A stretch of DNA of 64,000 nt from a virus, in the IMG/VR virus record IMGVR_UViG_3300028908_000005, positions 27,977 to 91,976 of that record; one strand, 5' to 3'. A program made the translations under genes and the position numbers. Under the pieces are notes generated by a model. It was not told where the DNA came from. It saw nothing but the letters and a program-made list of their open reading frames with translations, and searched no databases. This document shows positions 653 through 19,578 of the stretch, piece by piece (within the stretch, counting starts at the first letter, position 1; each line of letters opens with the position of its first letter).

Positions 653-2776
653 TTACACTTCCGAATAAACTACGTTGTCGAACAAGTAAGATAATCGCGG
701 ATCGTGCGTTACGAACAACAATTGCAACCCGTTAGTCGACGCAAGTTTCCGCAGCTGTTTCAACGCATCGGGCAAGCGGGCTAAGTGCTGCTCGTCCAAA
801 TACGCCTGCGCCTCGTCGAGCACCAAAACATCACTGCCAATAAACAGTGTATTCAATGCAATGCGCAACGCAAAAGCCAAAACGACGCGCTGCCCAACGG
901 ACAACCGCCGATCCGGTATCCGACGCCCATCAGCGAACAAAGCCGTGAAGCCTAAATCTTCAGTCGGCTCAACGCGGAACGGCGCATCGAAAATCTCCAA
1001 AGTCTCGTTGATATCTCCCAATAACCGTTCCATGTAGGTGTACGTCACAACCCGCTGCAACTCGTCGCGGTGGAAAATGCGTCGCAACTTCGTCATATGC
1101 TCCAAAGCTGCTTTAACACGCTCACGTTTCGCGATTTGCGCGTCAGCACGTTGCAACACACCTTCCATAACACCGAGCTGCCGCCTCAAATCGGTTAAAC
1201 TGTCAGTCAAAACGCGGATATTCGCTTCGATCTCGCTCTGGTCTCGTAACTGCGATTCCATCGCCTCCACGTCGTCACTGACTTCGATCGCATAGGCTTC
1301 GGCCAGCTTGCGGCTCGCCATTTCCTCTTCGTCTTTGATATTCGCTCGCGTCGACTCGTACTCGGTCTTCACTTTCGTCTGCGCCACCAACGTCTCGGAA
1401 ACACGCAAACCAGCTCGCTGCAATTGCTCACGACCGCGCCGCAGCTTGTTCAACTCTTCCTCGTCAGGCGGATCGCCCAACTTCGCCACAGCCTCGTCCA
1501 GCCGCTCCTGCAAGCGCCGCAACCGTTGCAAGCTTTCGTTGTATGACTTGAGCCGCTGCTCATAGTCGTGATACTGCTCGTACCTGGCCTTAACGTCGGC
1601 AGCCGCAGCTTCCAACTGCGCAATCTCTTGCTGCAAAGACGCCGATAGCGTTTGCTTGTCGACCGGCTGCCCGCATGTCGGGCAGTTCGCTTCATCGACT
1701 TGCTGCAGCTTGGCCAATCTGGCACGCGCATGTTCCAGCTGCGACGTCAACGAAGCGAACTCGCCGTACAATTCGCGCACTCTGTCGGGTGAATAGTCCA
1801 CAATCTCGGTCGTCGGCTCGCTTATGGTCGACGCCAACGTAATGACCGCCTGCTCCAACGACGCAACTTCATTCGCCCGCTCAGTGTAAAGCTGGGCCGC
1901 CGCGTTGAGCTCGGATAAACGCTCTTCGACATCGCCGTACTCTGCCAACAATTGATCGAACGCACGTTTAGCTTCGTCGTGCTCGGCGACAGCTTCGGCT
2001 AACGCTACAGCCAACTCGCCAAACCGCTCCGTCTTGGGCAATACCGCGTCAATACGTCGCTGCGCCTCGGCATACAATTGCTGCTGGCGGTCGCGCGCAG
2101 CAATCTGCCTACGGTACTCAGCCACCGTCTCGGGCGATAAACGGACGGCTTCGAGTCGAGACAATTCGGCCTCGTACTTATCGCGCTTCGCAAACATCTC
2201 GGCCAACGTCGACCTGACTTGCTCGATATCGTCAGGATACGGCGGAATCTCGACACGACTCGTTGCCGTCATAATTGCCTGCCAGATCCGCTCCGCCGTG
2301 TCCGTCCCAAAGAGCCGCGCCAGCTCCTTGGCGCGATCAGCCGGGCGCAGCTCCAACCACGCTGTAATCTGCTGCTGGCGCACGAAAATGTGCTCCTGCA
2401 GATAGCGCCGCGAAATGCCCAACCGCCTTTCGATCTCTTCGTTGACCTCGACGATCGTACGCCCGTAACGCTCGCCGTTGACCGTCAGTAACACTTTGTT
2501 CGGCCGCAAACCGCGATAGACCTCAATCGTGTCGCCGCGATGCTCCAGCGTTAATCGCACATACGCTCGGCTGCCTTCGGGTGCTCCTTGGCGTATGTCG
2601 TCGGCCTTCGTACCAGTGCCGCCAGCATCCCCGGTCAATGCGTAAAGCATCGCCCGAATCATGTTCGATTTGCCGGAGCCGTTCGGGCCGGCAATCAAGT
2701 TGAAATGCGGACTGAACTCGACCGTACGGTCGTCATACTGGCAAAAGTTCACCAGTTCAAGTTTCTGAAGTTTCAC
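653..2776 (-). CDS. Rad50/SbcC-like recombination ATPase
   Basis: A 707-aa ABC-type ATPase that should pair with the Mre11-like nuclease encoded just upstream to process DNA ends. The P-loop GPNGSGKS is at residues 30-37. Long charged coiled coils flank a zinc hook CPTCGQ near residue 364. The signature LSVGQ and the Walker B stretch DVLVLDEAQ lie near residues 628-657, with a final HD motif (FVTHDPR). The frame is open further upstream, but that part overlaps mre11. I chose the GTG at 2776 because GAGGAG sits 7 nt before it and the protein then begins KLQKLELVNF, like Rad50 N-termini. It overlaps mre11 by 20 bp, suggesting translational coupling. The length resembles phage gp46/SbcC proteins. 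All key ATPase motifs look intact. Confidence 0.93.
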   Translation of the reverse strand: MKLQKLELVNFCQYDDRTVEFSPHFNLIAGPNGSGKSNMIRAMLYALTGDAGGTGTKADDIRQGAPEGSRAYVRLTLEHRGDTIEVYRGLRPNKVLLTVNGERYGRTIVEVNEEIERRLGISRRYLQEHIFVRQQQITAWLELRPADRAKELARLFGTDTAERIWQAIMTATSRVEIPPYPDDIEQVRSTLAEMFAKRDKYEAELSRLEAVRLSPETVAEYRRQIAARDRQQQLYAEAQRRIDAVLPKTERFGELAVALAEAVAEHDEAKRAFDQLLAEYGDVEERLSELNAAAQLYTERANEVASLEQAVITLASTISEPTTEIVDYSPDRVRELYGEFASLTSQLEHARARLAKLQQVDEANCPTCGQPVDKQTLSASLQQEIAQLEAAAADVKARYEQYHDYEQRLKSYNESLQRLRRLQERLDEAVAKLGDPPDEEELNKLRRGREQLQRAGLRVSETLVAQTKVKTEYESTRANIKDEEEMASRKLAEAYAIEVSDDVEAMESQLRDQSEIEANIRVLTDSLTDLRRQLGVMEGVLQRADAQIAKRERVKAALEHMTKLRRIFHRDELQRVVTYTYMERLLGDINETLEIFDAPFRVEPTEDLGFTALFADGRRIPDRRLSVGQRVVLAFALRIALNTLFIGSDVLVLDEAQAYLDEQHLARLPDALKQLRKLASTNGLQLLFVTHDPRLSYLFDNVVYSEV

Positions 2777-3878
2777 CAACGAGCTCCTCGAAAATAGCCT
2801 TCGCTTCGGTAACAGGATCAGCCGCACGGACCAACCTGACAGCATTCTGGTAAACCGCTTCGTCGTCCCGATAAAGCTCGGCAAGCCCGCGCAACAGCGC
2901 TTCTTTACCGCCGCCGGCGACGATGTGATCGCGCTTATCCTTCGGAATGGCAACTGCAGGGCCCTGCTCCGGCGGCGACACGCTGATAAACAAATGCACC
3001 GAATCGCCCGCCCGCCGCCGAATGAGTTCGACTGCGTCAGGAATATCCGCACGCACCTGAACCCAAACGATGTTCTTCTCGATCTCCGGCGGTACGTGCG
3101 GCTGCGGCTGCGACACTTGCGACTCGTCCCAACGAGCCAACAAGCTGTCCAAGTCGGCTTCGCTGTTGACGTACCACATGAAACACTGCCGCTCCAATAG
3201 CCGCCGAGGCTCCACATGCAAGTCGTCGTACAGAAGATAAACCCGCTTCGGTGCGTTCTCGTTGATCTTCTGCCGACACAACGGACCAGGCGACACGAAA
3301 GGCAAGCATTTGCTGCCAAACTCGCGATACATCCCGCAGTGGAAATCGCCGGATACGATCAAACGATGCTCCTGGCAAGCATCCAACCAGACGTCGCCCA
3401 AGACATCGCCCATCAGATCCTTCCAAACCTGATGCGTGACGAATACGTCAGCCGCCGCAACCTTCCCGACAGCCTCGACGACTTCGCTCGGATGCTGATA
3501 ATCCAAACCGGCAAACGCCAGATTGCCGACCTCGATCGGCGTATCGGTAAGATGCGTTGCCGCATGCGAAAGTGTCGAAATAATCGGCGGTTGCGAAAGT
3601 TCGTGCTGGCCTTGGACGTACAACACGCGACAGCTCGCCGCATCAGCCGCTGACAAGAATCGCTGCATCGTCGCCAAAGCAGTCGATCGTTGCAACTTTT
3701 CGTTGAATATGTCGCCGGCAAGCACCACGGCTCGCGGGGACAGCTGTTCCACGATATTCGCTACTTGACGGATGCCGTAGTCGATATCGCCAACCAAATC
3801 GGGGTGGTCAGCCCAAATGTACGGCATGCGGCGGATATGCCAGTCAGCCGTCAAAACTGCGATAAGCTCGTGTGACAC
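2757..3878 (-). CDS. Mre11/SbcD-like nuclease
   Basis: A 373-aa calcineurin-like phosphoesterase, the nuclease partner of the Rad50-like ATPase. Visible metal-binding motifs in order are DWH (residues 11-13), GDIFN near 55, GQHE near 92 (in place of the usual GNHD), THQVW near 150 and SGDFH near 175. The start is GTG at 3878 within TAGTG, overlapping the stop of the upstream gene by one base, with GGAGG 7-8 nt before it. The last 20 bp overlap the Rad50 start. Phages use this pair in recombination-dependent replication and repair, as T4 gp47/gp46 do; that role here is inferred from family. Confidence 0.92.
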   Translation of the reverse strand: MSHELIAVLTADWHIRRMPYIWADHPDLVGDIDYGIRQVANIVEQLSPRAVVLAGDIFNEKLQRSTALATMQRFLSAADAASCRVLYVQGQHELSQPPIISTLSHAATHLTDTPIEVGNLAFAGLDYQHPSEVVEAVGKVAAADVFVTHQVWKDLMGDVLGDVWLDACQEHRLIVSGDFHCGMYREFGSKCLPFVSPGPLCRQKINENAPKRVYLLYDDLHVEPRRLLERQCFMWYVNSEADLDSLLARWDESQVSQPQPHVPPEIEKNIVWVQVRADIPDAVELIRRRAGDSVHLFISVSPPEQGPAVAIPKDKRDHIVAGGGKEALLRGLAELYRDDEAVYQNAVRLVRAADPVTEAKAIFEELVGETSET

Positions 3879-4246
3879 TAAATATCCCTCCGTTCAAGAA
3901 GCTTGTTGAACTGATCGACCGTCAACGGCGGCGCGTCCAGTTGCCGATGACTGTAAAGTTGCACGCCAAAGTTATAAACTGCGTCCTTTTCGGCTTGAGT
4001 CGAAATACCCATGCTTTCATAAAGACCAGGCGGTACCGCCAGCCGGTGCGTACCGTCACGAACCTGCGACACCAGCGACTCTTTGAAATCGAGCCATAGC
4101 TCGTTGAGCTGCCGCCCATGTCGCATAGCCAACGAAAACTGCAACGTGCCGGCCTCAGCGCCGTACCAGGCAACCGCATCGGCAGCAGCTGCAAGTTCGC
4201 GCTGCAGTGTCTCACGGTAAAGCGATGCAAACAGTCTCGCACTCAT
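3878..4246 (-). CDS. Hypothetical protein
   Basis: A 122-aa protein of unknown function. The frame extends upstream, but the ATG at 4246 is the likely start. It overlaps the stop of the HldE-like gene as ATGA and has AAAGGAG 7-8 nt before it. The sequence is mostly helical and charged, with no membrane segment, signal peptide or cysteine cluster. It lies between mre11 and the HldE-like gene with overlapping ends, so it belongs to the same operon. I recognise no family. Confidence 0.75.
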   Translation of the reverse strand: MSARLFASLYRETLQRELAAAADAVAWYGAEAGTLQFSLAMRHGRQLNELWLDFKESLVSQVRDGTHRLAVPPGLYESMGISTQAEKDAVYNFGVQLYSHRQLDAPPLTVDQFNKLLERRDI

Positions 4247-13392: not shown

Positions 13393-13421
13393 TTGTAGTT
13401 ATTGTGGTTAACTCGTATAAT
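13393..13421 (+). promoter_or_regulatory. Candidate sigma70-type promoter for terminase
   Basis: TTGTAG (13393-13398), a 17-bp spacer and a perfect TATAAT (13416-13421) point rightward, about 150 bp before the terminase start. The -35 box is weak (three of six consensus bases). It lies in the 63-bp gap between two minus-strand genes, and a transcript would run antisense through the small gene at 13441-13569 before reaching the terminase. Confidence 0.45.
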
Positions 13422-13440
13422 CTATCCGCCTATGCTCATT

Positions 13441-13569
13441 TTACCTGAGAAGCAGCTCGTATAGTACATAAACCACAACAACCACAACAAACAACCCATC
13501 CGGTACGGCGTCAGCTACGGCGCCGCACAGCTTTCCGAACCCTTCAAGACGCTCACGGTCGTTAGCCAT
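13441..13569 (-). CDS. 42-aa single-span membrane protein
   Basis: From the ATG at 13569, with GGAGG 6-7 nt before it, this reads MANDRERLEGFGKL and then a run of hydrophobic residues rich in valine (FVVVVVVYVLYELL). That gives one membrane helix near the C-terminus. Its start codon and the terminase start codon share two base pairs on opposite strands. A longer version of this frame would run into the terminase gene and is unlikely. Function unknown; size and topology would suit a small lysis or membrane-stress peptide. Confidence 0.6.
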   Translation of the reverse strand: MANDRERLEGFGKLCGAVADAVPDGLFVVVVVVYVLYELLLR

Positions 13570-16500
13570 GTCAAACCTCCATACAGCTACCCAATTACCC
13601 GAAACATTTACACGAGTTTTTGAGTTGCAGAGAAGTGACGGCACAGCGATCCGCGACGAAGAGCGGCTATCGCGATTCGTTCATCTGATCCAAAACAAGC
13701 GTATACACTCTTTCGTCCACGCTTTGCCGCTCATTCTCAACTTGAAGGGCCGGCCATACACGCTCAAAGATCATGCCCCGTTCGAAGAACTGTTCCGGTT
13801 CAAACAGCCGCGGCGGACAACCTACAAGACGGGACGGCAAGTAGGTAAGACCGTATCGCAGGCTGCAGCAATCGTAGCTCGACTTGCGTCGATGCCTAAC
13901 AAGTATCACCCAGAGCCGCATACGATGCTGCACATCACGCCGCTCTATGAACAGATCCGGCGTTTCAGCACGATGTTCCTCGGACCGTTCCTGCAAACGT
14001 CGCCGATACGACAGCTGCTCGTCGACCCGCGCTGCGTCGAAAGTGTGCTGCACCGCACGTTCCGTAACGGCTCGCAAATCCTGCTGTCGTTCACCGGTAT
14101 CGGCCCGGAACCGAACCGAATACGTGGTGCTTTCGCAGACGAATTATCGGAAGATGAATCAGTCACCGGTGACACGCTGCTGACGACGCCGTTAGGCCAA
14201 ATACCGATCAAAGACGCTAGACCCGGCGACATCGTAAAATGTTTTACCGAAGATAACCACGTACGATGGACGACCGTATCCAAAGTGTGGTACGCTGGCA
14301 GACGCCACTGCTACCGCATCACGCTAGAGGATGGATCTTATGTCGACAGCACATCAGAATCGTACGTGGCCACAGATTCCGGATGCTTTCGAGTATCGCA
14401 ACTCATCGAAATTGCCGCCGGAAGCCGCAGCTGCGCAACGCGAAATCGTACTAGCGAACAAGAACAAACCACTGAACCAACAGCAGCTGCAGCTAGTGTA
14501 CGGGACGATGCTCGGCGACGGGCATCTGACGCCGCGAGGTGCCTACGTGGCGACACAGAGCTACGCGTTCAGGGAATACCACTGGGCAAAGTACACGATA
14601 TTGTCCGATTACGTCTACGGCGTACCGTCGAAGCAACAGAAACGCGGAACAGACTTCTGGTCGGTGAAATTCTGGACTGCCGCCACACCGGAATTAGCGT
14701 CCCTACGGCAGCTTTGGTACCCGGACGGCCACAAACGCGTAAATCGCGAAATCTTGCAGACTATCGACGAACTCGGATTTTTGGACTGCGTAATGTGGTG
14801 GATATGCGACGACGGAACCAGATGGGGTCCGAAGTACTCGCCTACACTAAGCCTTTGTACGCACGCTTTTCCACAAAGCGATGTCGAACTTTTGTCGAAC
14901 TGGCTGATGGAACACGGCTATCGATCATCGATTCGCGAGCAGACCCAGTACAGAAAGCCGTTGTATACCCTGATGTTTGCAACGGAGTCAGCCGTACGGC
15001 TGATGCGGAAACTGACACCTTTGGTACATCCTACTATGCTATACAAGGTGGCTGTTACTGGGAGGAACGACACGGAAATCTGTCTGTTCTGCAAACAACC
15101 ATTCCAGTTGAAAACGTTGCGGCGTCGGACCGACCTCGCGTGGTTCCCTTGCTGCGACAACCCCGCGTGCAAGTCTGCCAAGAAGAAGTTCATGCGCCAA
15201 CGCGAACTGTCCAAGCCCGGCGCCAAAGCCAAACGGCAGCAAGCAAAAAGAGAATACGTGCAACGAAACAAAGCCGCAATCTACGCCAAAAACGCCGAAT
15301 GGGCCAGAAACAATCCGGACAAGGTTCGCGAAATTTGGCGACGCGCCGACGCCAAGAAACGCCGCAAGCAACAAGAAGCTATGCCGCCGTGCGTCATTTG
15401 CGGCAAACAAATCAAATTGGAACGCGGCATGAAACATACGCGAACCGCTTGCGGCGGCTGCCAGCCGGAACTGCTGCGGCGACGGGCCAAGATCGCTTAC
15501 TACAAGCGCCGCATGCGTACCGCCAAGACACAGGAACAACGCGAAGCCGCAGCTGCGAAAATGCAAGCCCTGAAAAAGTCGATTGGCGTCGAATAGTCAG
15601 CATCGAATACGTCGGCATACGCGATGTTTACGACGTTGAAACCGCCGGACCGCATACCGTAATACTCAACGGGCATGCGCGACCGCAATGCCAAGACATC
15701 GACCCAAGCCACGAAGGCGTGGTTGACGAAACCATGTCACACTCTACTTGGGCCGTCAAGAAGAGCACCGGCACGCCAAAGACGCTCGACAACTTGCTGC
15801 AGATCAAGTGGGAAGAAAGCAGCCAAGCGGAGTGGTTCGTGCCGTGCTTTCATTGTACCACAAACGGACATCCGACCTACAACATTCCGTCGATCGAATA
15901 TCATCTCGACGCTATGATCGGCCCTTGGCGCGAAGATATATCCGACAAGAGCCCAGCGACGATTTGCTACAAATGCGGTAAGCCGATTTCACCGCGATTC
16001 GGTCGTTGGGTGCATCGTTACAAAGCGCGGCGTTGGACGCATGCCGGCTATCATATACCGCAGATTATTATGCCGATCCACTTCGCTGACCCAAACAAGT
16101 GGTCAACGTTATTACTCAAACGACGCACATTGCCAGCTTATCTGTTTTACAACGAAGTGCTCGGCGAAGCTTACGATACGGCAGCAAAACTTGTCACGCT
16201 CGCCGACCTTAACAAAGCTGCCGTGCTTTGGCCGAACGACGACCACGAAGCTCTGCAGCGACGTCGGAATTATTCACTCGTCGTCCTCGGCGTAGACTGG
16301 GGCGGCGGCGGTAAAGCCGGTGACAGCTACACGACACTTGCGCTCGTTGGCGTTCTGCCGACCGGCGAACTGAATGTCATCTGGGGCAAGCGACTGCTCA
16401 CGCCGCACGATCATATTCGCGAAGCCAAAGAAATCATACACTACTGCAACATGTTCTCGCCCGATTTCGTTGCACACGACTACACTGGCGGCGGTTCGCT

Positions 16501-16915
16501 ACGCGAAACGATATTGATCCAGTCAGGCTATCCGCTGCAGAAGATCATGGCCTGCAGCCTTGTACGCAGCGCTCGGCAGGCTCCGTGCCAGTTCATACCG
16601 GCTACGATGCAGCATCCGCGCGATCACTACAACGTCGACAAGGCCAGAACGCTGCTGCTTACGTGTGCCATGATCAAACTTGGGCGGCTCAGATTCTTTC
16701 AGAACGATTACATCTCGGAATCAGAGCCGGGGCTTATCCGCGATTTCTTGGCCCTCGTTGAAGATAAAATCAGCTCGCAAGCCGCTGCTGAGATTTACCG
16801 AATCACGAAGATCGCGAATAAATCTGACGATTTTGCGCAAGCCGTCAACTTCGCCTGCGTCGCTATCTGGCACGCCACGCGGTCCTGGCCAAACTTGGCG
16901 CTCGGCAACAACTAG
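13568..16915 (+). CDS. Terminase large subunit with intein
   Basis: A 1115-codon frame: a 605-aa terminase interrupted by a 510-residue intein (residues 198-707). The packaging ATPase has GRQVGKT at 89-95. Its Walker B region FADELSEDE is followed, after splicing, by CQDID. A zinc-like pair CYKCGKPI and the RNase H-fold nuclease follow, with VLGVDWGGGG, AHDYTGGG and NKSDDFAQ as the likely metal-binding acids. Family role: cutting concatemeric phage DNA and driving it into the prohead. No strong ribosome binding site precedes the ATG at 13568, and there is no later ATG before residue 108. It is one of only two independent plus-strand genes. Its stop overlaps the convergent stop of the next gene in a shared CTAG. 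Confidence 0.93.
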   Translation: MSNLHTATQLPETFTRVFELQRSDGTAIRDEERLSRFVHLIQNKRIHSFVHALPLILNLKGRPYTLKDHAPFEELFRFKQPRRTTYKTGRQVGKTVSQAAAIVARLASMPNKYHPEPHTMLHITPLYEQIRRFSTMFLGPFLQTSPIRQLLVDPRCVESVLHRTFRNGSQILLSFTGIGPEPNRIRGAFADELSEDESVTGDTLLTTPLGQIPIKDARPGDIVKCFTEDNHVRWTTVSKVWYAGRRHCYRITLEDGSYVDSTSESYVATDSGCFRVSQLIEIAAGSRSCATRNRTSEQEQTTEPTAAAASVRDDARRRASDAARCLRGDTELRVQGIPLGKVHDIVRLRLRRTVEATETRNRLLVGEILDCRHTGISVPTAALVPGRPQTRKSRNLADYRRTRIFGLRNVVDMRRRNQMGSEVLAYTKPLYARFSTKRCRTFVELADGTRLSIIDSRADPVQKAVVYPDVCNGVSRTADAETDTFGTSYYAIQGGCYWEERHGNLSVLQTTIPVENVAASDRPRVVPLLRQPRVQVCQEEVHAPTRTVQARRQSQTAASKKRIRATKQSRNLRQKRRMGQKQSGQGSRNLATRRRQETPQATRSYAAVRHLRQTNQIGTRHETYANRLRRLPAGTAAATGQDRLLQAPHAYRQDTGTTRSRSCENASPEKVDWRRIVSIEYVGIRDVYDVETAGPHTVILNGHARPQCQDIDPSHEGVVDETMSHSTWAVKKSTGTPKTLDNLLQIKWEESSQAEWFVPCFHCTTNGHPTYNIPSIEYHLDAMIGPWREDISDKSPATICYKCGKPISPRFGRWVHRYKARRWTHAGYHIPQIIMPIHFADPNKWSTLLLKRRTLPAYLFYNEVLGEAYDTAAKLVTLADLNKAAVLWPNDDHEALQRRRNYSLVVLGVDWGGGGKAGDSYTTLALVGVLPTGELNVIWGKRLLTPHDHIREAKEIIHYCNMFSPDFVAHDYTGGGSLRETILIQSGYPLQKIMACSLVRSARQAPCQFIPATMQHPRDHYNVDKARTLLLTCAMIKLGRLRFFQNDYISESEPGLIRDFLALVEDKISSQAAAEIYRITKIANKSDDFAQAVNFACVAIWHATRSWPNLALGNN
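14159..15688 (+). other. Intein in terminase (Ser1, Gln510, Cys+1)
   Basis: The intein begins SVTGDTLLTTPLG (block A) at codon 14159. It has a block B-like segment STSESYVATDSG and ends with VYDVETAGPHTVILNG (block F) and HARPQ, before Cys+1 at 15689. It is inserted inside the terminase Walker B motif (DE/CQD), a typical active-site location. Unusual points are a block-B histidine replaced by serine and a C-terminal Pro-Gln instead of His-Asn. Between about 14420 and 15580 the intein frame is open but reads as Arg/Thr/Gln-rich sequence with no endonuclease motifs. That stretch codes for a LAGLIDADG endonuclease in the +1 frame. Confidence 0.85.
14340..15596 (+). CDS. LAGLIDADG homing endonuclease nested out of frame in the intein
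   Basis: A 418-aa protein in the +1 frame relative to the terminase. The two LAGLIDADG helices are LVYGTMLGDGHL (about residue 57) and LGFLDCVMWWICDDG (about residue 145), each with the catalytic acid. The C-terminal half is Lys/Arg-rich with two cysteine clusters (CLFC...CCDNPAC and CVIC...CGGC), likely zinc-binding DNA-contact modules. GAGG lies 9 nt before the ATG at 14340, so it may be translated on its own; an ATG at 14331 sits directly on that GAGG. The stop is 92 bp before the intein end. Homing endonucleases cut intein-less alleles to spread the element. Encoding one in a different frame from its intein is very unusual. Confidence 0.88.
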   Translation: MSTAHQNRTWPQIPDAFEYRNSSKLPPEAAAAQREIVLANKNKPLNQQQLQLVYGTMLGDGHLTPRGAYVATQSYAFREYHWAKYTILSDYVYGVPSKQQKRGTDFWSVKFWTAATPELASLRQLWYPDGHKRVNREILQTIDELGFLDCVMWWICDDGTRWGPKYSPTLSLCTHAFPQSDVELLSNWLMEHGYRSSIREQTQYRKPLYTLMFATESAVRLMRKLTPLVHPTMLYKVAVTGRNDTEICLFCKQPFQLKTLRRRTDLAWFPCCDNPACKSAKKKFMRQRELSKPGAKAKRQQAKREYVQRNKAAIYAKNAEWARNNPDKVREIWRRADAKKRRKQQEAMPPCVICGKQIKLERGMKHTRTACGGCQPELLRRRAKIAYYKRRMRTAKTQEQREAAAAKMQALKKSIGVE

Positions 16916-19578
16916 CCGTAGACGCGTAATGTGCTGCTATCGTTCCACCAGCGAAACGATATGAACCAGCCCGGATTCTCCGCGTCGCCGACGCCTACCA
17001 GCTTGCTCGCTGCTGCCAGCCGTTTGGTAACGTCGTCCGGATCCGGGATCGGCACCCGCCACTTGTCGGCAATCAACAGTAGCGTCGCCTGCGGTATGAA
17101 CACAGTACGCCGAGACGGTTTGTCTATTTGCAGCAATGACAACTCTCGCCGCCGTTTCTCGTACTTCGGATTGTACAAGGCCAATTTGCCGTCGCTGACC
17201 GCCTCTCGCAGCGTATCGCGGAACAGCGCTGCCCACTCGGTCGTGTCCGAAGTATCCGTCAACAGCCGTAACGCTGCACGTTCCAAAGCGTCCGCATCGC
17301 CTGCAGCCATACTGAGCATGTCATGCAAAATGAACCTAACAAACCCCTCTCTAGCGTTAAGCAATCGCTGGGGATCTTTGGCGTACCGCTGCAGCCATGC
17401 CACCATGACAGCGCCAGCATGCCGTAGGAACCGCTCTGCGCCTACGTGACGCGTTTCGTCGCGAATTACGGTCCAGGAGCCCTGTAGGGCCAACCAAGGC
17501 GCCCAGGGCCGCGGAAACGCCATAACAGCGGCCTTTTCACTCCCGTCTTGGACCCATGTAAGCCGTTTTGCCGTTGGGTAACCGCGGCGGACCTCGACGA
17601 TTGCCGGCCAACGGCGTCCGCGGAGCCTGGCCTGCAGCTCACGGGCAAATTCTGCTTCGCTGTAGCTTGCTTGCAGTTTGATCGTATCGCAGCCGCAAGC
17701 CGCCGCCGTCAGGCTGCCGATCGTTTCGGCGCCGGTGCCGGTCAGCGCAACGCCGCGAGGCTTGATGACCCCCAATACCGAAACGACGTTAGCCGCAACG
17801 GCTGCCAACGTCGCCCAAAATACGGGTAGGGCAGGATGAGTGTCTGTCAGCTCATCCCACGGTACGCCTTGCTCGTCCGGGTTAGGAAACGGATCCGACG
17901 CGTTTAGCAAAGATTCCGTATCCGCGCTTACGTCCTTTGCGACAATGCGACCGCCGAGCTCGACTACAAATCGCGGGAAACGGAAGCCTGCAGCATCACC
18001 ATCCCACCCTATCCGGTTGTCTATGTTGCCGGCGCGCGGCGGATGCAGCTGCATGGCGATGTCGATAGCATGCTTCGACAACGTCGGCAAATACCGCATC
18101 ACACCAAGGCCGGCATCGAGTATCTTGTCCCGCATCCATCGAAACGTGTTCTGCTCGATCGTTTCGACAAGCTCGCAAAACTCCAGTGTGCTACCGGCAT
18201 ATTCGATATGCCCCGCATAGTACGTGTCTTGCGTATCTTTACTGTGGATGACGTTCGTTATCCGGAGTTTCGCATCGCATACGCAAGTCATATCTTTCTG
18301 CAGGAACCAGCCTGCTGCCGTCTCGATTACGACACGGTTACCGACAGCCGCGCGCCCGTAGCTCGCCGCTGGTTTGGCAGCTCTTATCGCACGGGAGATC
18401 GGGCGTGTCAGCATGTTATGCAACGAAATTTCAGCGCTTGGCGGCAGGTCCAGATCCTGTGCGTAAATCTGTATTTGGTCGAGTTTTGCCTCACGCAATT
18501 CCCGGTGCAACACGATACGCCATTCTTTTGCCGTTTTTGAGATGGCTTCGAGAAACGCTACTGGTCGCACCTGTAAATGTCCGCTGCCGCAGTGTACGCG
18601 GGCGTCGAGCCTGGCCGCCAAGTTGAATACTGCCGGTGACGGCTCGCAGCACCAGATTACGTAGTCCTTTCGCGGCAGATTGTCTAATGCGACCCGTGGG
18701 AAGCATAGCGGTTGTTTCTTTGTCCTGAGCCGGCCCAAGTAAGTCGCCAGCAGCGGCAGCGTTGTCGCCGTATCGCGGCTGTGTCGCAGGTGTAACAGCA
18801 ACGCTGCAGCCGGGTCAGTCGCAATCACTGTTGTGTTGCAGTGCAGCGGATGCGGGCGATATTCTGCGTCCCACGTCAAGAAACCGACGTCGGCAGTGTC
18901 GCCGCTGACACCGCTTAACGGTAGGTACGTCGCGAACTCCGGGGCATCCAAGCGGTCTGCTACGAAGAACCCGCAAACATGCTTCGGAGCGTCGAAAACA
19001 GGCGATATGATCAGCTCGCTTTTGGTCATTCCGGTCAGCATCTTAACGACGCCGAAGACCTTCGAATCGCCGTCGCGAAGCTGCTCGACAATCTGGTTTC
19101 CGAACATTGTGCCCAATAGCCAACCTACACGGCTTCGCCAAACCTCGCTCGGCAACATGTATGCGGCCGCGCCGGAGGCAAACAATGTCCGAAGATTCCG
19201 CGTGTGCTGCAGATTAGCTACGGCATCGCTGAAGATGTCGAGGGCTTTCGCGTTCTTCCCGACAGCCGCCAGATATTCGCCAAAAGTGTTATGCTCGATA
19301 GCCAAATCACGGACAGTCTCGATCTCTGAACGCCAGTGTAAAATGGCTTTTTCTTGGTCTACATCCAGATATTTGGCCAATAGTGATGTAAAATCACCAT
19401 AAGAGCCGCAGCGAGAACAATGATGCCACGGTACGCCAACTATGGTATCCTGGTAAAGCGTAAGCGTTGTATTACCGCATAAGGGGCATCTGACACGCAT
19501 CGGCAGTGCTGTGCCTGTCGCAGACGTGTCGATTAGCTTAAGTAAGTCATACCACCGCAAATATGAGCCTAATTGCAT
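16912..19578 (-). CDS. Large primase-like zinc-finger protein
   Basis: An 888-aa protein from the ATG at 19578; a TTG at 19602 is also possible. The N-terminus carries C31-x2-C34 and HC54-x2-C57, like the CHC2 zinc finger of DNA primases, with the typical SYGDFTSLL after it. The centre is a mixed domain of unknown type. Near residue 630, ALTGTGAETIGSL sits where a helicase P-loop would be expected but lacks the GK[ST] residues. It may be a primase or primase-helicase relative with an altered ATPase, or an unrelated replication protein. It is convergent with the terminase (stops share CTAG) and divergent from the next plus-strand gene with 12 bp between the starts. Confidence 0.6.
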   Translation of the reverse strand: MQLGSYLRWYDLLKLIDTSATGTALPMRVRCPLCGNTTLTLYQDTIVGVPWHHCSRCGSYGDFTSLLAKYLDVDQEKAILHWRSEIETVRDLAIEHNTFGEYLAAVGKNAKALDIFSDAVANLQHTRNLRTLFASGAAAYMLPSEVWRSRVGWLLGTMFGNQIVEQLRDGDSKVFGVVKMLTGMTKSELIISPVFDAPKHVCGFFVADRLDAPEFATYLPLSGVSGDTADVGFLTWDAEYRPHPLHCNTTVIATDPAAALLLHLRHSRDTATTLPLLATYLGRLRTKKQPLCFPRVALDNLPRKDYVIWCCEPSPAVFNLAARLDARVHCGSGHLQVRPVAFLEAISKTAKEWRIVLHRELREAKLDQIQIYAQDLDLPPSAEISLHNMLTRPISRAIRAAKPAASYGRAAVGNRVVIETAAGWFLQKDMTCVCDAKLRITNVIHSKDTQDTYYAGHIEYAGSTLEFCELVETIEQNTFRWMRDKILDAGLGVMRYLPTLSKHAIDIAMQLHPPRAGNIDNRIGWDGDAAGFRFPRFVVELGGRIVAKDVSADTESLLNASDPFPNPDEQGVPWDELTDTHPALPVFWATLAAVAANVVSVLGVIKPRGVALTGTGAETIGSLTAAACGCDTIKLQASYSEAEFARELQARLRGRRWPAIVEVRRGYPTAKRLTWVQDGSEKAAVMAFPRPWAPWLALQGSWTVIRDETRHVGAERFLRHAGAVMVAWLQRYAKDPQRLLNAREGFVRFILHDMLSMAAGDADALERAALRLLTDTSDTTEWAALFRDTLREAVSDGKLALYNPKYEKRRRELSLLQIDKPSRRTVFIPQATLLLIADKWRVPIPDPDDVTKRLAAASKLVGVGDAENPGWFISFRWWNDSSTLRVYG

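Follow-up and report, generated by a model that had tools for sequence, protein, structure and literature searches.

A LAGLIDADG homing endonuclease gene overprinted in another reading frame on a phage terminase intein, with related cases in other phages and in cyanobacteria

Introduction

How can one gene be read both as a phage terminase carrying an intein and, in a different frame, as a homing endonuclease (HEN)? The question is raised by a 64,000-nt stretch of a 91,976-base IMG/VR virus record, which was analyzed here and is called the window below. In textbook inteins, the endonuclease forms one domain of the intein polypeptide itself. We describe here the terminase locus of the window, its relatives in phages and cyanobacteria, and the constraints acting on the two overlapping frames.

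Results

The terminase gene and its intein

In the whole 91,976-base record, the terminase profile PF05876 (GpA_ATPase; Pfam) matched one ORF only, at 1.4e-6 (Table 1). As the preliminary description had stated, its frame is open across the intein, and the entire ORF is free of stops. The junctions of the intein (14159-15688) are exact, ..SEDE/SVTGD....ARPQ/CQDID.., and over 70 of 80 viral relatives of the terminase are uninterrupted at this point (..IDEV/QDM..). As is usual for inteins, the insert is in frame, occurs sporadically, and interrupts a conserved site of its host protein, here Walker B. The terminase stop (16912-16915) shares 4 bases with the end of a convergent minus-strand ORF of 896 aa, the start of which resembles a CxxC zinc ribbon.

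Table 1. Coordinates of the terminase, intein, and endonuclease features in the window
Feature	Position	Strand	Description
Terminase large subunit precursor	13568..16915	+	1115 codons, one open frame (mod3=2): N-extein, intein, C-extein
N-extein	13568..14158	+	Ends ..SEDE within the Walker B motif; based on alignment with intein-less relatives
Intein, terminase frame	14159..15688	+	510 residues, Ser1 to Gln510; Cys+1 at 15689-15691
Splicing domain, N-terminal part	14159..14428	+	Hint blocks A, N2, and B; AF2 residues 1-90, pLDDT 70-92
GAGG, Shine-Dalgarno-like	14327..14330	+	Inside the Hint-N coding sequence; 9 nt upstream of ATG 14340
LAGLIDADG homing endonuclease (HEN)	14340..15596	+	+1 frame (mod3=0); alternative ATG 14331; TAG 15594-15596
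Terminase-frame linker over HEN	14429..15583	+	Stop-free, Arg-rich, predicted disordered
LAGLIDADG_2 core of HEN	14490..14993	+	TMLGDG, ICDDG; Pfam residues 54-221 of the ORF
HEN C-terminal basic tail	15081..15593	+	CxxC-type pairs CLFC, CDNPAC, CVIC, CGGC
Splicing domain, C-terminal part	15584..15688	+	Blocks F and G, ..HTVILNGHARPQ; AF2 residues 476-510, pLDDT about 76-90
C-extein	15689..16915	+	Starts Cys+1-Gln-Asp; at most 61% identity to viral terminases

The splicing domain was recognized in several ways. Hint-N and Hint-C profiles, the seeds of which include the window sequence itself, matched the window intein, while an independent tblastn search led from its N-terminal part to inteins of phage helicases. 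The class profile of host-frame inteins matched mini-inteins of the PDB (4o1r, 4.8e-23), and a Foldseek search with the AF2 model of the window intein recovered the Ssp DnaB and gp41-1 inteins as fold matches. Pfam Intein_splicing gave no match when the window sequence was searched alone; PF14890 was above its cut-off in three related inteins described below (L102, L105, and FoX3), all with His-Asn or Ser-Asn before Cys+1.

The window intein has Ser1, a terminal Gln, and Cys+1, but its block B reads TSES where TxxH is usual, and Pro-Gln rather than His-Asn stands before Cys+1, the penultimate residue being Pro. Because of the Ser in block B and the Pro-Gln terminus, splicing in the window may be slow or altered. 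The replacement of the block B His by Ser was seen in three +1 inteins, those of the window (TSES), L009 (TSDS), and L063 (TKDS), and, judging from these residues, the first step of splicing may be chemically different in them. The Pro-Gln end is common to the window and L004.

The endonuclease in the +1 frame

The LAGLIDADG HEN that had been placed in the +1 frame at 14340-15596, behind a GAGG motif, was corroborated by a Pfam match to PF03161 (LAGLIDADG_2, E=8.6e-20) and by a duplex energy of -8.2 for its ATG, a level of -8 being attained by about 2% of background ATGs. An I-SceI profile matched the HEN at 4.5e-23, and its AF2 model (pLDDT 82) had the fold of I-WcaI and I-SceI (TM 0.75 and 0.73, respectively), with both acidic motifs (GD and DDG) present and aligned with those of I-WcaI. 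Profile, fold, and the two LAGLIDADG helices with their acidic residues together identify it as a LAGLIDADG_2 (I-SceI-like) homing endonuclease. The TAG of the HEN falls where the C-terminal splicing part begins. CxxC-type pairs, variable in number, were also found in the tails of other +1 HENs, the alignments of these tails being uncertain.

The terminase-frame linker over the HEN had been called Arg-rich and motif-free, and in a Pfam search the terminase-frame translation of the insert gave zero matches, LAGLIDADG included. Nearly all of the 385 linker residues (AF2 residues 91-475) had a pLDDT below 50. The G+C content at the three codon positions was 0.54/0.45/0.66 in the insert when read in the HEN frame and 0.56/0.43/0.65 outside it when read in the terminase frame; since it tracks the HEN frame within the insert, the HEN is the primary coding frame there.

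Recurrence in phage terminases

What had been described as a single oddity turned out to be a recurrent class, with HENs at +1 in terminases and at +2 in helicases and DnaX. The comparison of frames among homologous terminases, which the preliminary description had proposed, spoke for the overlap: +1 HENs were present in the inteins of eight terminases beyond the window, making nine distinct loci, with the HEN out of frame and the host frame unbroken in every one. Among these nine are homologs from unrelated samples whose terminases are roughly 40-55% identical. In L009/L010 (terminase 42% identical), the intein occupies the site of the window intein and the HEN is also at +1. L004 displays the C-terminal half of the arrangement, likewise ending PQ/C, and the intein of L063 lies a few residues upstream of the window's site, its +1 HEN being killed by a single TAG with the host frame still open. 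The HEN-core scan added +1 HENs in terminases of two families (L101, L102, L105, L107, and L109), L102 being represented by the same DNA in three assemblies.

These loci were recovered through terminase queries and HEN-core alignments. The window HEN alone gave no match as a query against viral contigs, and a six-sequence HEN alignment was too diverse to serve as a query for the genome collection. Among the relatives found, none had an in-frame HEN at these terminase sites. The HEN-core scan can detect the classical state, since it also recovered about 30 more distant LAGLIDADG_2 HENs that lie in frame within ordinary inteins.

In most of the distant terminase pairs, the linker as a protein was no more conserved than is predicted by the HEN together with the no-stop constraint. 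Only the L105/L107 and L099/L101 linkers were somewhat above stop-free shuffles, and this excess similarity probably reflects shared ancestry.

Two further terminases were seen in the scans. That of a Rubritepida MAG (L231:3046-5640) has an intein at DE/C with a shortened, decayed +1 HEN and an open host frame. The other (L061:4001-6300) carries a classical intein with an in-frame HEN at the Walker A site, downstream of which, near the TPKS motif, there is an apparent frameshift.

The +2 lineage and selection on both frames

In Xanthomonas phage FoX3, an isolated phage, a helicase carries a canonical intein (DE/C..HN/C) with the HEN at +2, and its relatives FoX1, FoX2, FoX5, Murka, and M29 match this helicase outside the insert only and have empty sites. 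The +2 state was also found in the DnaX inteins of 35 cyanobacterial genomes (genome scan) and in four more phage loci (viral scan), 39 loci in all. In the DnaX set, 6 of the 35 genomes (L193, L204, L205, L209, L210, and L214) have a HEN frame that is interrupted or shortened, and the host frame is broken in none. The usual length of these DnaX inteins is 430 residues; in further genomes sampled, shrunken forms of 339, 229, and 162 residues were present, again with an open host frame.

Since close relatives on which substitutions could be tested are lacking for the window, the evidence for selection was drawn from DnaX; the rates of synonymous and nonsynonymous change in both frames, a check proposed in the preliminary description, were in line with constraint on both frames there. 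Across eight close and independent DnaX pairs, 228 single differences within the overlap were usable, and 154 of these fell at third codon positions of the HEN (omega 0.20). The linker, otherwise free in its sequence, had 0 host-frame nonsense changes, against 11.4 expected; its host-frame omega was near 2, which follows from the constraint in the HEN frame. In the splicing domain directly upstream of the overlap, the host-frame omega was 0.17. A larger set of DnaX pairs, which are non-independent, agreed with these results. From the omegas and the zero nonsense changes, the DnaX HEN and splicing domain behave as working proteins, while the linker need only be readable.

Avoidance of stops

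It had also been argued that a stop-free run of this length is unlikely by chance, and shuffling bore this out. With synonymous codons of the window HEN shuffled 20,000 times as the null, the mean number of terminase-frame stops in the overlap was 9.9 and the minimum was 2, against 0 observed; none of the 20,000 shuffles was stop-free. The third frame of the overlap, with 14 stops against 14.7 expected, turned out to be unconstrained. For the nine distinct terminase loci, shuffles of their own codons predicted about 117 host-frame stops, and for the 39 +2 loci shuffling predicted about 200; there was none in either set, and the 48 pooled loci had 0 against about 317 expected. The AT-rich L102 alone had 0 where 27 were expected. 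The test was weaker at some single loci (P=0.02 for FoX3 and P=0.055 for L249).

Start signals of the endonuclease

At 8 of 10 loci, a Shine-Dalgarno (SD)-like site of -5.9 or stronger preceded the best candidate HEN start, with -10.8 in L101 and -10.2 in L109, whereas -6 was attained by 7% of background ATGs; the comparison is tilted somewhat toward the HENs, because several candidate starts were tried per locus. In L105 and L107, the SD was weak, with no clear site before the HEN. In L101, L102, L105, L107, and L109, the open HEN frame extends back only a few codons beyond its first start. As far as these start signals go, the HEN is probably made by internal initiation.

Origins and split forms

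In the HEN tree, the +2 HENs cluster with the split case of Pectobacterium phage Ymer (90/93), the terminase +1 HENs lie near one another, and L105/L107 are placed elsewhere. The tree, in which many branches are weak, needs two changes for the +2 state and three for the +1 state, and a single origin for all out-of-frame HENs is unsupported by it. The existence of two offsets (+1 and +2) points to at least two origins.

In Ymer (L025:2021-5227), the halves of a helicase intein lie in two ORFs, IntN ending at 2899 and IntC starting at 3515, and a LAGLIDADG HEN (2734-3585), out of frame, spans the gap between them. The number of host-frame stops, 13, is close to the neutral expectation of 13.5, which suggests that Ymer is an overprinted intein turned into a split intein; on its sequence, it may mark a path from the one to the other. 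Four phages similar to Ymer were also noted (hits H69 and H71-H73).

Other kinds of split were seen as well. In L124 (3234-5893), the IntN ORF ends at 4013 and overlaps the start of an ORF for HEN, IntC, and C-extein in another frame; here, and similarly in L146, the split sits between IntN and the HEN and not around the HEN. In L245 (3373-4699), the N-part of the intein is in one frame and the HEN plus IntC in another, with 44 N-frame stops between. The HEN matches in PVP-SE1 and crAss-like phages were set aside as being of another kind, the HENs being separate genes between ORFs.

Discussion

The anatomy, the predicted folds, the avoidance of stops, and the recurrence of the arrangement are established, as is selection on both frames in the DnaX relatives, and splicing, internal initiation, cleavage, and homing are what we infer. 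The locus is, in our judgment, very probably a mobile intein whose HEN forms a complete gene within another frame, one DNA thus giving rise to two products, the spliced host protein and a HEN that stands free of it. Ribosomes starting at 13568 would read the N-extein, IntN, about 385 linker codons, IntC, and the C-extein as one frame, and the two ends of the intein would fold together, excise themselves, and ligate the terminase. With the embedded GAGG in front of it, ATG 14340 would serve other ribosomes as the start of a freestanding I-SceI-like endonuclease, which would cut intein-less terminase genes, with the whole cassette being copied in. Selection would act on the HEN protein in one frame; in the other, it would maintain the splicing domain and keep out stops and frameshifts.

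The HEN might also be reached by a programmed +1 ribosome shift at about the point where the intein N-part ends; the product would be an N-extein-IntN-HEN fusion, made with no internal initiation. The gapless overlap of the two frames would permit this, and L105 and L107 lack a good SD, but the presence in 8 of 10 loci of an SD-like site and an ATG or GTG start, the closed HEN frame just upstream of the first start at the five loci named above, and the need for two kinds of shift to account for both offsets make such a mechanism improbable. We consider it similarly improbable that the intein no longer splices and is tolerated as a loop of the terminase, as has been proposed for the ShiLan domain, its frame being open merely because it is translated. 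The TSES block B and the Pro-Gln end of the window intein are what such a loop could look like; yet the 510-residue insert interrupts Walker B in an ATPase that is essential, the residues Ser1, terminal Gln, and Cys+1 could still support the chemistry, the related inteins of L102, L105, and FoX3 combine PF14890 scores above the cut-off with His-Asn or Ser-Asn before Cys+1, and purifying selection on the splicing domain of DnaX is strong.

Removal of the HEN region from the mRNA, as by a group I intron, or its skipping by the ribosome is brought to mind by the nearest solved structures, I-SceI and I-WcaI, which are intron-encoded endonucleases. We found this very hard to uphold: the ends of the splicing domain are in frame with the exteins, the open frame between them would be unneeded, and Rfam over 13400-17000 gave no match up to E=5. 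A group I intron, which would have a ribozyme core, or another RNA element was rejected because of this missing Rfam match. Least credible, to the point of being negligible, is a product of chance or artifact, whether a fortuitously open GC-rich frame left by a recent frameshift or a pair of sequencing indels. Long open alternative frames are common in GC-rich genes and the window is a single assembly, but shuffle tests were made per locus, AT-rich L102 included, the same state occurs in separate assemblies and in the isolated phage FoX3, and the stops missing from the 48 loci number in the hundreds.

Inteins with a nested HEN might, as we tentatively propose with somewhat less than even confidence, be a distinct recurrent architecture of at least two origins, in which natural entanglement slows the decay of the HEN and a break of the host frame yields a split intein, a route to fractured genes. 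If this is true, frameshifts in the HEN would destroy an essential protein and be purged, and the HEN would decay more slowly. The overprinted HEN is a separate gene over about 200 to 500 codons of a gene whose product is central to replication or packaging, and phages and cyanobacteria have maintained this state; a demonstrable constraint on both frames is rare for so long an overlap. Surveys restricted to the host frame will overlook such endonucleases and label the inteins HEN-less. A testable identity is also offered for the middle of cyanobacterial DnaX inteins, and the overprinted inteins would be a natural counterpart to engineered sequence entanglement.

Canonical bifunctional inteins of the PI-SceI type have the same splicing domain, with the HEN between blocks B and F, but there the HEN is in frame and is a domain of the intein polypeptide, as in our own examples, the KLEP7 RNA ligase (L019), L027, and the actinobacterial L211. 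The window was excluded from this type by its +1 HEN and by the lack of LAGLIDADG in the splicing-domain frame. A separate HEN gene between intein halves is also found in fractured genes, reportedly described by Dassa et al. in 2009, in which the intein is split and its halves flank a freestanding HEN. In these, the host gene consists of two ORFs joined by trans splicing, whereas the window has one ORF of 1115 codons and was excluded from this type too; the split form is that seen in Ymer, which looks like a broken form linking to fractured genes.

Among the closest published cases are the ShiLan domain and the Pacc40 insertion, where DNA methylases of phages carry an out-of-frame HNH endonuclease (Arsenault et al. 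2025, PMC11855218). They share with the window a homing endonuclease hidden in another frame of an insertion whose host frame lacks stops, but the nuclease is HNH, no splicing domain was detected, and the insertion is thought to be retained in the methylase (PMC11855218), whereas the window has a LAGLIDADG HEN within a recognizable intein; splicing domain and nuclease together excluded it as a ShiLan-type HNH insertion. With regard to overlapping frames, PMC11855218 cites a preprint on the "non-canonical architecture" of actinobacteriophage inteins. In the literature searched, we found no description of an out-of-frame HEN inside a genuine intein, and an earlier notice is possible. The Ssp DnaX intein, which splices in Escherichia coli, has been assigned a putative endonuclease domain (PMC3620165, PMC3443213). 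The cyanobacterial DnaX inteins analyzed here are of this kind, the Synechocystis one being taken from its published description, but their endonuclease is a +2-frame gene. The engineered counterpart is STALEMATE, in which a LAGLIDADG meganuclease is entangled by frame overlap with a needed gene and thereby shielded from mutation (PMC12455656); the overlap in the window is natural and nearly full-length, and splicing is expected to remove the overlapping product.
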